Shown here piece by piece: positions 695 through 59,379 of a DNA stretch of 64,000 bases (within the stretch, counting starts at the first letter, position 1; the number at the start of each line of letters is the position of its first letter). Both the position numbers and the translations under genes were made by a program. The notes under the pieces are model-generated. The model had not been told where the DNA came from. It did no database searches and saw nothing but the letters and a program-made list of their open reading frames with translations. Origin of the DNA: Saccharopolyspora phatthalungensis (GTDB taxonomy: Bacteria > Actinomycetota > Actinomycetes > Mycobacteriales > Pseudonocardiaceae); contig NZ_JACHIW010000002.1 of NCBI RefSeq assembly GCF_014203395.1, positions 186,001 through 250,000 of the forward strand, read 5' to 3'.

Positions 695-1111
695 ATGCGG
701 TCGGGAGTCTTCAACGGCACCGAATCCTCTGTCATGGCCGGGGAAGCAATCAACATGACTGGTATTCCGGATCCTGGTGATCCAGGGCGGTGGTTGGTGC
801 GGCCCTGGCCGGCGAATGCCAGTTTTTGTGAGGTGGTGCGGCATTTTTTGAATGCCTACGTGTGGCGGCTTCTGCAGGACACCGATGTTCGCCGTCAGCT
901 TGACTATTTTTCAGGTTATCGGGCCGCGCTGGAAAACGCGCCGACGTACGAGCTGACGTGTGCTGCGGATTGGCAGTGGCGGGAGGAACTTCTGGCGGTG
1001 GTGGGGAGATGTGTGGATCTGTTTGAGGCGCAGCGTTGCGGCGAGCGGAAGGTGAATCTAGACCACCTGCGATTGCCGGAGCAGACCGCTCTGACGCTGG
1101 CTCCTGGGTGA
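695..1111 (+). CDS. hypothetical protein, 138 aa
   Basis: No family is recognised. ATG 695 is chosen because AGGTGAGGAG lies about 9 bases upstream. A second candidate, ATG 755, has its own GGGGAAG and would give a 118-residue protein starting MTGIPDPGDPG. The protein is soluble, rich in aromatic residues (WLVRPWPANASF, NAYVWRLLQD, ADWQWREELL) and mostly helical after residue 45. It has no signal peptide or membrane segment. The bases around 800-1000 are less GC-rich than the flanks, which may indicate acquired DNA. It lies between a TPR regulator and a peptide/methyltransferase pair on the same strand and may belong to that locus, but the sequence gives no function. Confidence 0.55.
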   Translation: MRSGVFNGTESSVMAGEAINMTGIPDPGDPGRWLVRPWPANASFCEVVRHFLNAYVWRLLQDTDVRRQLDYFSGYRAALENAPTYELTCAADWQWREELLAVVGRCVDLFEAQRCGERKVNLDHLRLPEQTALTLAPG

Positions 1112-1228
1112 ACTTCCACAGTGGCTAGTGGCATGGGGTTGGCCCGGCGGATTCCACTCGCGTGGAGGTACATGCCTGACCAGCGCACACCGATAGTTAT
1201 TTCGGAACCGCAAGGGAGACAGAGCAAG

Positions 1229-1351
1229 ATGGGTAAGCACGACACCAACGTCGAGCGTGACGGTCATGGCGACTACGACCACACCAAAACCAAGCCGGTT
1301 GAGGAGTCCTCGGAGGGAACACATTCCAGTGATGACAAGGGTGGCGAATGA
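1229..1351 (+). CDS. 40-aa polar peptide, candidate precursor for the adjacent methyltransferase
   Basis: ATG 1229 follows GGGAGA by about 9 bases. The product is 40 residues, begins MGKHDTNVERDGHGDYDH and ends in EGTHSSDDKGGE. It has no hydrophobic stretch and is very rich in Asp, Glu, His, Lys and Gly, including one Asp-Gly step. Its stop overlaps the methyltransferase start as ATGA (1348-1351), so the two are translationally coupled. PIMT-homologue methyltransferases paired with a short peptide are known to make aspartimide-containing RiPPs such as imiditides and fuscimiditide. A precursor role here is an inference from coupling and Asp content. An upstream in-frame ATG at 1172 would add 19 residues, but its GGAGG is only 3 bases away. 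Confidence 0.6.
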   Translation: MGKHDTNVERDGHGDYDHTKTKPVEESSEGTHSSDDKGGE

Positions 1352-2499
1352 GCTCCCGCAGGTACCTGCCCACAGACCCGTGGACGAGCGAGGTACCCCG
1401 GGAACCCTTCATCCCGGACCGGATCTGGGTTTACAGCGAGCCGAACGGTGGGCGCGACCTCATCGAGATCAATCGGGTCACTGACCCGGAGCGCTGGTCC
1501 GCCGAGGTCGCCGCGAACGTCCCGATCATCACCCAGGTCAACATGGGCAAGCCGATCGAGCCCGGCGAGACCCTGGTCCCCACGTCATCCTGCTCCATGC
1601 CGTCGCTCGTAACCGACATGTTGGATGCCCTCGGTCCTCAGCCCGGCGACGGCATACTGGAGATCGGGGCAGGAACTGGGTGGAACGCCGCGCGCCTCGC
1701 CGTGCGCGTCGGGGGAGGCGGCCACGTCGTCACCGTCGAGGTGGACCCGGAACTGGCTGAAACCGCGCTGAAAAATCTCGCCGAGTTCGGCTCCACGGCG
1801 TGCGTAGTCACCGCTGACGGGCTCCAGGGGTGCGCCGAGGACGCGCCGTATGAGCGGATCATCGCCACGTGCGCGATCCGGGAACGAATCCCGGTAGCTT
1901 GGCTCGACCAGCTCTCACCGGGCGGGCGGATCATCGCGCCGTGGGGAACGGAGTTTTTCACTGGTTGCATGCTGACAGCCGACGCCGACGACGAAGGCTG
2001 TGTGACGGGCCGGTTCTCGGGTGATCTTGCGTTCATGCGCGCTCGATCACAGTTGCACGCGTTCTACGACTACGAACCCGCTGTCGAGGTCAAACGCTCC
2101 GCGCCGTGGGAGACCACCAGCCACACCGGGACCGAGACGCTCGATGCAGTCCTCGATCCGAGCCGGGCGCGGTTCGCCATCTCCACCCGCGTGCCGGACC
2201 TCGGGCTCACCATCGCGTGGGACCTATTCGGCGACCGCCACCACTCGATCGAACTCGACGACTGGGCAACGAAGTCGTGGGCGCAGCTCGCCGCGCACAT
2301 GGACTCCGGCGAACCCTACGAGGTCCGACAGCATGGCCCCCGCCGGTTGTGGGATGAGATCGAGGCCGCGCTGACCTGGTGGCAGGACCATGACCAGCCG
2401 GGCATGGATCGCTTCGGGATCACCGCATGCCCGTCCGACGGTCGGCAATGGCTGTGGCTCGACGACCCGGATCACAGCATGCGGGTCCTTGTCCACTGA
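1348..2499 (+). CDS. PIMT-like SAM methyltransferase with C-terminal extension
   Basis: This is a 383-residue homologue of protein-L-isoaspartate O-methyltransferase. The SAM-binding motif LEIGAGTGWNAA lies near residue 110, preceded by the substrate-loop region VPTSSCSMPS and followed by the acidic strand VTVEVDPELAE and a GGRIIAPWG strand. Ordinary repair PIMTs are about 210-230 residues. This one has roughly 150 extra C-terminal residues, as in methyltransferases of actinobacterial peptide-maturation systems. Known relatives methylate Asp in ribosomal peptides and drive aspartimide formation. It overlaps the 40-aa peptide gene by four bases. No ATP-grasp, lanthionine synthetase or lasso cyclase gene is nearby, so the peptide and this enzyme would have to be self-sufficient or act with distant genes. 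Confidence 0.8.
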   Translation: MSSRRYLPTDPWTSEVPREPFIPDRIWVYSEPNGGRDLIEINRVTDPERWSAEVAANVPIITQVNMGKPIEPGETLVPTSSCSMPSLVTDMLDALGPQPGDGILEIGAGTGWNAARLAVRVGGGGHVVTVEVDPELAETALKNLAEFGSTACVVTADGLQGCAEDAPYERIIATCAIRERIPVAWLDQLSPGGRIIAPWGTEFFTGCMLTADADDEGCVTGRFSGDLAFMRARSQLHAFYDYEPAVEVKRSAPWETTSHTGTETLDAVLDPSRARFAISTRVPDLGLTIAWDLFGDRHHSIELDDWATKSWAQLAAHMDSGEPYEVRQHGPRRLWDEIEAALTWWQDHDQPGMDRFGITACPSDGRQWLWLDDPDHSMRVLVH

Positions 2500-56910: not shown

Positions 56911-59379
56911 GTGCTGCGCACTGGTCTGCTGCTGGAGTCCGGTTGCAGGCGGGGCCTGCGTGTGCTTGTGGAGGTGGCCCCTTTGGTTCGCGGCAGTGTC
57001 GGTGATTCCTCTGCCGCCTTTGATTCGCTGTTCAGCGACGTGTTCTCGGGGACGTCGGAGGGCGCTTCGGCTTCGGAGCGCGGTCTGGCGTTGGGCACGT
57101 TGCTGGATGCGCAGGCGCATGAGGTGGTGTCGAAGGCGGTTCGGGCCACTGTGGACTGGGGCAGTCGGGAGTTGGACGGGGCGCATCTGCTGTGGGCGGT
57201 GACGCAGGTGCCTGCGACGGCCGAGTTGCTGGTGTCCTCCGGGGTGCGGGTGGCGGAGTTGTCGTCGGCGGTGCGGTCGGCTGTGGTGGCGGCGCAGGAT
57301 CCGGGGGTGGCGGGGTGGCCGCCGGTGTTGTCGTCGGCGGCGCGGCGGGCGTTGTTGGGGGCGTATCAGCAGGCGTTGGGGGAGGGCGCCGATGTGGTGG
57401 GTGCGCGGCATCTGGTGTTGGGGTTGGCCGCGGATGCCGATTCGGTGACCGGTCGGGCGTTGGCGAGGGCGATTGAGTTGGGTGATCGGGGTGGGGCTCG
57501 GTCGGTGTTGAGCGTGACGCCGCGGCTGGACGAGTTCGGGCTGGATCTGACGGAGTTGGCGCGGGCCGGGAAGTTGGATCCGGTGGTGGGGCGGGACGCG
57601 GAGATCGAGCAGGCCATCGAGGTGCTGGGGCGGCGGTCGAAGAACAATCCGGTGTTCGTGGGTGATCCCGGGGTGGGCAAGACCGCGATCGTGGAGGGGT
57701 TGGCGCGGCGGATCGTGGCGGGGGCGGTGCCGTGGTCGTTGGCTGATGTGCGCGTGGTGTCGTTGGATCTGGCCGGGATGGTGGCGGGGGCGAAGTACCG
57801 GGGCGAGTTCGAGCAGCGGTTCCGGGACGTGCTGGCGGAGATCCGGGCGCATCGCGAGGACTTGCTGGTGTTCATCGATGAGGTGCACAGCATCGTGGGT
57901 GCTGGTGCGGGTGAGGGGTCGATGGATGCGGGCACGATGCTCAAGCCGGCGTTGGCGCGTGGTGAGGTGCGGTTGATCGGGGCGACGACGGTGGAGGAGT
58001 ACCGGCGGCACGTGGGCAAGGATCCGGCGCTGGAGCGGCGGTTCGCGCCGATCATGGTCTCGGAGCCGTCGGTGGCCGACACGGTGGTGGTGTTGGAGGG
58101 GTTGCGGGAGCGGCTCCAGCGGCATCATCGGGTGCGCATCGATGATTCGGCGTTGTCGGCGGCGGCGGAGTTGTCGCAGCGCTATATCGCGGACCGGTTT
58201 TTGCCGGACAAGGCGGTGGATCTGCTGGATCAGGCTTGTTCGCGGGTGCGGTTGCGGCGTGGTGGCGAGGTGCGGGAGTCGGCGGTGTTCGAGCCGACGG
58301 TGGTCGCCGATGATGTGGCGGGTGTGGTGGCGTCGCGGACCGGGATTCCGGTGGCGGATGTGAGCGCGCAGGATGTGCAGCGGTTGTTGGGGTTGGAGCA
58401 GCAGTTGCGGTCGCGGGTGGTCGGGCAGGATGCGGCGGTGGCGGCGGTGGCCGAGGCGGTGCGCCGGGCGCGCGCGGGGTTGGCGGATCCGGATCGTCCG
58501 ATCGGGAGTTTCTTGTTCCTGGGGCCCACCGGGGTGGGTAAGACGGAGTTGGCGCGGGCGTTGGCGCATGCGCTTTTCGGGGATGTGCAGCGGCTGTTGC
58601 GGTTGGACATGGGGGAGTTTCAGGAGAAGCACACGGTGTCGCGGCTGGTGGGGGCGCCGCCGGGGTATGTGGGTTATGGCGAGGCCGGGCAGTTGACGGA
58701 TCGGGTGCGGCGGCAGCCGTATTCGGTGGTGTTGCTGGATGAGGTGGAGAAGGCGCACCCGGATGTGTTCAACACGTTGTTGCAGGTGCTGGATGCGGGG
58801 CGGTTGACCGATTCGCAGGGTCGGCTGGTGGATTTCCGGAATGTGGTGGTGATCATGACCTCGAATATCGGGGCGGATCGGATCATGGATGCGGGGGTGG
58901 ATGCCGGGCAGTCTGCGCTGGTGGTGTTGGAGGAGTTGCGGGCGTTTTTCCGGCCGGAGTTCATTAACCGGATCGATGATGTGGTGGTGTTCCGGCCGTT
59001 GGGTGCGGAGCAGTTGCGGGGGATCGCGTCGTTGTTGTTGGAGCGGACCCGGGAGCAGTTGGCGGCCAAGGGGGTTCGGTTGGTGGTCAGTGATGCTGGG
59101 TTGGGATGGTTGGTGGAGCGGGGGTACCAGCCGGAGTTCGGGGCGCGGCCGTTGCGGCGGGTGATCGCGCGGGAGTTGGATAACCGGTTGGCGTCGATGG
59201 TGCTGTCGGGCGTGGTGTCGGCGGGTGATCAGGTGTCGGTGGATGTGGTGGATGGGGAGTTGTCGCTGGTGGTGACGTCGGTGTGGGAGCCGGTGTCGAG
59301 TGGTCGGCACGCGGCGCCGGCGGACCCTGTCGAGTCGCCGCGTTCGCGGGCGGTTCAGCGGCACAGTGTGTTGGGGTGA
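56911..59379 (+). CDS. Clp/Hsp100 AAA+ ATPase without middle domain or ClpP loop
   Basis: An 822-residue double-AAA+ unfoldase. An N-terminal Clp_N-like region (about 55-190) is followed by AAA1 (Walker A GDPGVGKT 251-258, Walker B D323-E324, pore loop AKYRGEF) and AAA2 (Walker A GPTGVGKT 538-545, Walker B D610-E611, pore loop PPGYVGYGE). Between them, SRVRLRRGGEVRES leads straight into the next segment. There is no ClpB-type coiled-coil and no ClpC-type short middle domain. The AAA2 region where ClpA, ClpC and ClpX carry an (I/L)GF tripeptide is short and lacks it, so ClpP docking is unlikely. GTG 56911 is the first start, but the true start may be further in. Confidence 0.9.
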   Translation: MLRTGLLLESGCRRGLRVLVEVAPLVRGSVGDSSAAFDSLFSDVFSGTSEGASASERGLALGTLLDAQAHEVVSKAVRATVDWGSRELDGAHLLWAVTQVPATAELLVSSGVRVAELSSAVRSAVVAAQDPGVAGWPPVLSSAARRALLGAYQQALGEGADVVGARHLVLGLAADADSVTGRALARAIELGDRGGARSVLSVTPRLDEFGLDLTELARAGKLDPVVGRDAEIEQAIEVLGRRSKNNPVFVGDPGVGKTAIVEGLARRIVAGAVPWSLADVRVVSLDLAGMVAGAKYRGEFEQRFRDVLAEIRAHREDLLVFIDEVHSIVGAGAGEGSMDAGTMLKPALARGEVRLIGATTVEEYRRHVGKDPALERRFAPIMVSEPSVADTVVVLEGLRERLQRHHRVRIDDSALSAAAELSQRYIADRFLPDKAVDLLDQACSRVRLRRGGEVRESAVFEPTVVADDVAGVVASRTGIPVADVSAQDVQRLLGLEQQLRSRVVGQDAAVAAVAEAVRRARAGLADPDRPIGSFLFLGPTGVGKTELARALAHALFGDVQRLLRLDMGEFQEKHTVSRLVGAPPGYVGYGEAGQLTDRVRRQPYSVVLLDEVEKAHPDVFNTLLQVLDAGRLTDSQGRLVDFRNVVVIMTSNIGADRIMDAGVDAGQSALVVLEELRAFFRPEFINRIDDVVVFRPLGAEQLRGIASLLLERTREQLAAKGVRLVVSDAGLGWLVERGYQPEFGARPLRRVIARELDNRLASMVLSGVVSAGDQVSVDVVDGELSLVVTSVWEPVSSGRHAAPADPVESPRSRAVQRHSVLG

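Follow-up and report, generated by a model that had tools for sequence, protein, structure and literature searches.

At least three two-gene pairs have been reported in which a PIMT-type methyltransferase modifies a partner peptide: SpaM/SpaA and FcaM/FcaA, in the portions of PMC10787088 drawn on here, and NmaM/NmaA, in those of PMC13001092. Type I pamtides, or imiditides (SpaA/SpaM, NmaA/NmaM), comprise two genes without a primary enzyme of another RiPP class. Their precursors are about 45 aa long, have conserved charged residues at both ends and a conserved Asp near Gly or Pro, and are rich in Gly, Pro and Asp, with a mean composition given in part of PMC10787088 as Gly 17.3, Pro 16.8 and Asp 10.2%. 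The enzymes exceed 300 aa and carry a C-terminal domain of more than 100 aa that contains the motif WXXXGXP. A review, in the portion drawn on here, describes imiditides as strongly positively charged, invokes charge-charge recognition and suggests that they are cationic membrane peptides (PMC13001092). Type II pamtides, or cysimiditides (FcaA/FcaM), follow the same two-gene logic with the same type of enzyme, and their precursors bear two CxxCxGxG zinc motifs.

Here we describe a pair of this kind in a window of 64,000 nucleotides from Saccharopolyspora phatthalungensis, a soil-type actinomycete with a genome of 8.5 Mb. The locus is probably a type I pamtide/imiditide-type pair belonging to a distinct acidic branch, in which one Asp of the peptide (D11 or D17) would be converted to aspartimide and isoaspartate, a chemistry that we infer from the enzyme family and from published pairs. 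It offers a small, two-gene system in which to study how a relative of PIMT selects a single Asp within an unfolded peptide.

A short acidic peptide gene overlaps an extended PIMT gene

The locus consists of two overlapping open reading frames on the + strand. The first (1229..1351) encodes a 40-aa peptide, MGKHDTNVERDGHGDYDHTKTKPVEESSEGTHSSDDKGGE, which contains six Asp and five Glu, lacks Cys and has a net charge of -6 (K+R-D-E). We regard it as the putative precursor, that is, the substrate of the enzyme, on the basis of the reading frame, profile matches, alignment and dN/dS. A probable ribosome-binding site read from the sequence, AAGGGAG (1212..1218, +), lies 10 nt 5' of its ATG. The second frame (1348..2499) encodes a 383-aa PIMT-type O-methyltransferase (PAMT) with a C-terminal extension, identified by its reading frame, domain models, alignment and tree. 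An earlier note on this DNA had described a 40-aa Asp-rich peptide with an Asp-Gly step overlapping, at ATGA, a 383-aa extended PIMT homologue, and the reading frames bear out that description, including some 150 residues beyond the catalytic core.

Comparison of intact loci points to translational coupling at the ATGA overlap (1348..1351, +). Seven of nine distinct intact loci, the window's included, show an ATGA or GTGA overlap, provided that the ATG or GTG is the enzyme start; the genes abut in one of the remaining two and are separated by a short gap in the other. Such an overlap would suit a short frame that is a mere translational leader, delivering ribosomes to the methyltransferase start with amino acids that are irrelevant. 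The substitution pattern contradicts this. In the closest pair, window versus S. pogona, the peptide has dN 0.094 and dS 1.97 (dN/dS about 0.05), with dS saturated and only 38 codons compared, and its differences fall 1/5/18 across the three codon positions, 18 of 24 at the third. Moreover, amino-acid motifs are kept across the 68 peptides described below. For the enzymes of the same two loci, dN is 0.22 and dS 1.29 over 236 codons. The 40-aa peptide is a real gene under purifying selection, and we give the leader reading almost no credence.

The surroundings of the pair are sparse. Among the adjoining genes we found no further maturase, protease or transporter and met no lanthionine or other primary RiPP enzyme, in keeping with the earlier note, which had reported no other maturase, and with the gene content of type I loci. 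Directly 5' of the pair is a 138-aa ORF (window 695-1111) without a Pfam or NCBIfam family, as scanned in a 159-aa version with an earlier start; at E <= 1e-4 it is matched in 5 of 150 genomes of the family, its own counted. Also on the 5' side is a 409-aa helix-turn-helix regulator that ends at 516 and has a sub-threshold TPR match, and the 3' neighbour, on the opposite strand, is the aconitase AcnA. No promoter-like site was found at the locus, and terminator-like sites there were no different from shuffles.

We compared the ORFs of ten loci, three of them with flanks limited to 1.5 kb, with those in the window's first 9 kb, and found no protease or transporter common to them. Leaving aside the pair and any frames that overlap it, the common neighbours were helix-turn-helix regulators in L023, L025 and L104 (two identified), weakly shared also by L022 and L024, together with a short-chain dehydrogenase and one family-less ORF shared by L019 and L020. 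The regulator 5' of the pair in the window is of like kind. Such helix-turn-helix regulators are very common in actinomycetes, and for this reason we claim no role for them. Far downstream, window positions 56911-59379 encode a Clp-type AAA ATPase that scores below the cut-offs of the ClpB/ClpA models; the DNA there is strongly strand-skewed (GC skew 0.33-0.35, AT skew -0.3 to -0.4).

A conserved peptide family tracks one enzyme clade

The peptide alone, used as a query, matched only its own cluster, and we therefore built a profile from nine distinct upstream peptides, aligned. This profile matched 68 proteins at E <= 10, namely the window's own, 66 others at E <= 0.02 and one at 1.1. The matches include some of the queries: at least three of the 66 are query peptides, and the full set of 68 holds at least four of the nine, the window's among them.

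The 68-row alignment reveals several conserved elements. T21 is invariant (68/68), D36, K22 and G30 occur in 67 rows, H32 in 66, and D17 and G12 in 65. T21 and K22 form, with the less strict K20 (51/68), a class-marking K20-T21-K22 motif (1286..1294, +), and H32 and D36 anchor a C-terminal element, H32..D35-D36-K37 (1322..1339, +). Two Asp positions are candidate modification sites. At D11-G12 (1259..1264, +) the first residue is D in 59 of 68 peptides and N in 5 (DG 57, NG 5); at D17-H18 (1277..1282, +) D is found in 65 of 68 and is followed by H in 50. These positions fit the pattern of a conserved Asp near Gly or Pro in type I precursors, and the charged, conserved ends of the family, GKHE/D at the start and KH.kDDK at the end, likewise recall that type.

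In composition the family departs from type I. Its median length is 43 aa (window 40), close to the published size, and its mean Gly (14.7%) and Asp (19.9%) contents fit, with Lys at 14.6 and His at 6.7%. Pro, in contrast, stands at 1.8% against 16.8% in type I pamtides, and because of this misfit we call the locus a variant rather than a plain type I member. The lack of Cys separates the window peptide from type II precursors with their paired zinc motifs.

The reading in the earlier note depended on the peptide being conserved next to methyltransferases of this family, and the linkage holds. We ran both the peptide profile and the enzyme on 297 genomes of the host's family. The profile found 15 places in 13 genomes (16 rows, because one frame-broken copy is split into two), and 13 of the 15 lie directly upstream of such an enzyme. 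Of the other two, one is beside enzyme fragments (G154) and one is a shortened peptide without an enzyme (G089). The 13 linked places are not all whole: the enzyme is short in G007, and the peptide is partial or frames are broken in G095 and at the second places of G193 and G275. Among 298 genomes sampled more widely across the order, 2 had the peptide at E <= 0.001, both already counted.

Peptide and enzyme are also co-inherited. A contig scan with the single enzyme protein found no relative; alignment A1, used as the query, then found relatives. We classed 117 loci (9 + 80 + 28, several being the same place reached twice) by their peptide, using a pattern and hand inspection. A polar upstream peptide is present at 107 and absent at 10, three of which are far paralogues from the window's own genome. 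In a quick tree of 115 enzymes, the window peptide type occupies one clade of 16 rows and 13 distinct enzymes (SH-aLRT 98), and peptide type changes once on the tree against a mean of 15.2 for shuffled labels; the tree program flagged long branches in other parts of the tree. Within the clade, L021 (= L125) and L111 were labelled from peptide remnants or interrupted frames, the reading frame of L126 is broken, and the label of P0072 derives from its fused peptide. That one peptide type tracks one enzyme clade strengthens the pairing of peptide and PIMT homologue that the earlier note had claimed. Most of the next relatives have peptides of the MGKRDADRDGQG..PDKWENWG..KDDGNKHEGDD type, and L025, at the clade base, has an intermediate peptide type. 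In L025:2803-3957, an apparently shortened helix-turn-helix/DUF5753 regulator shares one open frame with this intermediate-type precursor peptide.

Some loci count against our main reading, that of a type I-like pair. In S. pogona (L009/L018, G007) an intact peptide sits beside a 237-aa methyltransferase without the C-terminal domain, which suggests a decaying copy that has lost this domain and retained the peptide. By eye, a transposase-like gene is seen about 0.9 kb downstream in that locus. Conversely, an intact enzyme (L021 = L125) is accompanied by only the second half of the peptide, and frames are broken in L126 and L111.

P0072 (Amycolatopsis sp. NPDC059090, 447 aa) holds peptide and methyltransferase in one frame, with N-G replacing D-G, and from its sequence may be either a genuine fusion between substrate and enzyme or an error in the sequence. 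Its peptide-like N-terminal extension prompted the search upstream of other enzyme homologues.

The enzyme differs from repair and graspetide methyltransferases

The window enzyme shares its catalytic domain with the canonical PIMT (Pcm): PCMT (PF01135) matches residues 80-202 at 97 bits. The EIGAGTG stretch (residues 105-111; 1660..1680, +), in which E105, I106, G107, T110 and G111 are invariant in 18 rows, is the SAM-binding motif. Beyond the core lies the C-terminal extension domain (residues 234-383; 2047..2496, +), whose boundary was set by a motif and which is seen as a domain in a structure model of P0072; both its size and that of the whole protein agree with type I enzymes. The extension departs from type I in one respect, carrying WQDHDQP (2380..2400, +), a variant of WXXXGXP with D for G. 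In an alignment of 44 rows, that Gly is kept in 27, replaced by another residue in 14, and without a match to the pattern used in 3. The window enzyme is 95% identical to P0001 of Saccharopolyspora hattusasensis.

For the P0072 model, the top PDB match is the T. maritima PIMT 1DL5, an extended-PIMT fold that likewise has a C-terminal extension. The TM-score is 0.58 by target length and the rmsd 8.5, so the domains superpose only loosely. A PADLOC match to mad2 was set aside as reflecting a shared methyltransferase fold.

The enzyme appears dispensable for ordinary protein repair. The substrate of repair PIMTs is isoAsp in aged proteins, and the window enzyme scores 81 on the repair model TIGR00080, under its cut-off of 159.05. 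The genome has a separate canonical PIMT elsewhere (L017, 162 against the same cut-off), and the window enzyme is therefore not needed for this task.

The closest curated model, and best NCBIfam match, is instead TIGR04188, the methyltransferase of ATP-grasp (graspetide) systems. On that ground the enzyme could be a tailoring methyltransferase of a graspetide or FxLD lanthipeptide whose primary enzyme is encoded elsewhere, with the peptide as its precursor. Its score of 256.4 bits, however, is well under the cut-off of 380, whereas L010 of the same genome is the one methyltransferase to pass (382.5). Furthermore, the four best ATP-grasp (TIGR04187) places of the genome adjoin other PIMT homologues (L012, L006, L008 and L010), are likely graspetide-type loci, and are nowhere near the window locus; the Cys-free peptide, too, argues against a tailoring role, which we consider very improbable. 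The ATP-grasp places are at C1:4574127, C2:1799343, C1:68690 and C2:2004532, one of them above cut-off, and two methyltransferases of the genome exceed the FxLD cut-off.

The peptide ends match those of Pro-rich peptides

The peptide family aligns with Pro-rich peptides encoded beside PIMT homologues in Actinomadura, Nocardiopsis and other Streptosporangiales, such as MGKHEDNSTSDGHKPDRPIPPPTPDDGGSGDGKHERDDK in L038. The hhalign probability is 96.6 and the score 46.6; the best of 150 column shuffles reached 16.0, and the reversed profile gave 9.7. The 17 Pro-rich peptides in this comparison were picked by hand, and we therefore scored 48 candidates without picking: 21 passed the 99th percentile of scores from 2400 shuffles, and 15 scored higher than any shuffle. 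In the same unpicked scoring, the Streptomyces DKLPGEPWPGP type showed no match to the family. D11-G12 is present in all 17 of the hand-picked relatives.

Judged from these sequence comparisons, the ends of the window peptide are homologous to those of the Pro-rich peptides, and the middle differs, the window core being Pro-free. The Pro-rich relatives themselves look like published type I pamtide/imiditide precursors as described in parts of PMC10787088, PMC13001092 and PMC11048544. The window peptide would then represent an unusual branch of a known kind, set apart from published type I members by their descriptions. This gives substance to the earlier guess of a distinct branch, since low Pro, mostly acidic net charge and a core unlike that of the Pro-rich relatives are combined with homologous ends. 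Comparing the Pro-free acidic core with Pro-rich relatives that have the same ends would separate end recognition from the modified core, and would test the need for charge pairing or for a Pro-rich turn.

Peptide and enzyme are both acidic

Type I imiditides are described as strongly positive, yet at this locus both partners are net acidic, the peptide at -6 and the enzyme at about -28. Net charge across the 68 family peptides ranges from -9 to +2 and is mostly acidic. Among 80 distinct candidate peptides upstream of the nearest enzymes, a sample drawn from relatives of the window enzyme, 73 are net negative, 3 zero and 4 positive; counted over the 100 loci that carry them, the figures are 93, 3 and 4. 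The 27 Streptosporangiales candidates are mixed, with 13 negative, 4 zero and 10 positive. Start codons in both samples were picked by a composition rule. These counts narrow the generalisation that imiditides are strongly cationic and membrane-acting.

Peptide charge does not follow enzyme charge. Across the 100 loci we found no correlation between the two (Spearman -0.003). Whole enzymes entered this correlation because the domain boundary motif was missing in 22 loci; in the first charge comparison, one enzyme was also too short. In terms of net charge, the published charge-charge recognition has no counterpart here; local charge pairing is possible.

A proposed route to aspartimide

In our model, the peptide would be translated first and the enzyme next, from the overlapping start. 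The enzyme would recognise the conserved ends of a disordered peptide and, as its family suggests, carry out SAM-dependent methylation of one Asp side chain. The resulting methyl ester (+14 Da) would close on the next backbone nitrogen to give an aspartimide (-18 Da), which would open mostly to isoaspartate. The loci compared showed no protease, transporter or further maturase accompanying the pair, and the product may therefore function intracellularly or rely on general export.

The likely target is D11, whose D-G step is common to the Pro-rich relatives, or D17, which is almost invariant within the branch and usually precedes His. Published systems offer a precedent for each. According to parts of PMC10787088, FcaA is modified at D-G, a step that also forms part of the lanthipeptide motif TxDGC; parts of PMC13001092 report NmaA to be modified at an Asp followed by His. 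NmaA also remains partly active when its first 20 residues are removed (PMC13001092, same portion); if the layouts correspond, this argues against D11, whose equivalent in NmaA could belong to a leader. We place D17 and D11 about level.

Within the acidic Pro-free branch, a more specific version of events deserves mention, tentatively and as a minor possibility. The enzyme might dock on the two ends rather than through opposite net charge, and the D-G/N-G step might serve as a succinimide switch, enzymatic at Asp and spontaneous at Asn. Asn-Gly can cyclise by itself, and the N-G of 5 of the 68 peptides could do so. If this were true, the product would be an intracellular reactive or conformational tag, not a cationic membrane peptide.

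Alternatively, the enzyme could be an extended PIMT acting on other proteins, to repair or mark them, with the peptide as its small protein partner (a chaperone, an inhibitor or a subunit for targeting). A partner would account for conservation at both ends and not solely near Asp, and it agrees with the lack of a protease or transporter gene common to the compared loci. In the P0072 fusion model, residues 1-46 have pLDDT under 50, which is compatible with a disordered partner; at such values the model gives no docking information on the peptide region. Opposing this are the published pairs, at least three, reported in the portions of PMC10787088 and PMC13001092 cited above to modify their peptides, the placement of D17 and D36 among the most conserved residues, with D or N at position 11 in 64 of 68 peptides, and the separate canonical repair PIMT in the genome. 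We consider a partner role improbable, and favour modification of the peptide by its own enzyme.

Related loci

The S. phatthalungensis genome (G000) contains four other extended PIMT homologues, L002, L003, L004 and L005 (C1:3536011, C2:985179, C1:4811662 and C2:1163724), each preceded by a small polar peptide. The peptides of L004 and L005 are of one type, GKDKND...QTGKT..DP..Y, and the two enzymes pair in the tree. A type II-like candidate precursor in another genome (L156, G541), CPSCNGTG...HDG...CPVCNGTG, begins GKHD like type I peptides, hinting in its sequence at an N-terminal element common to types I and II.
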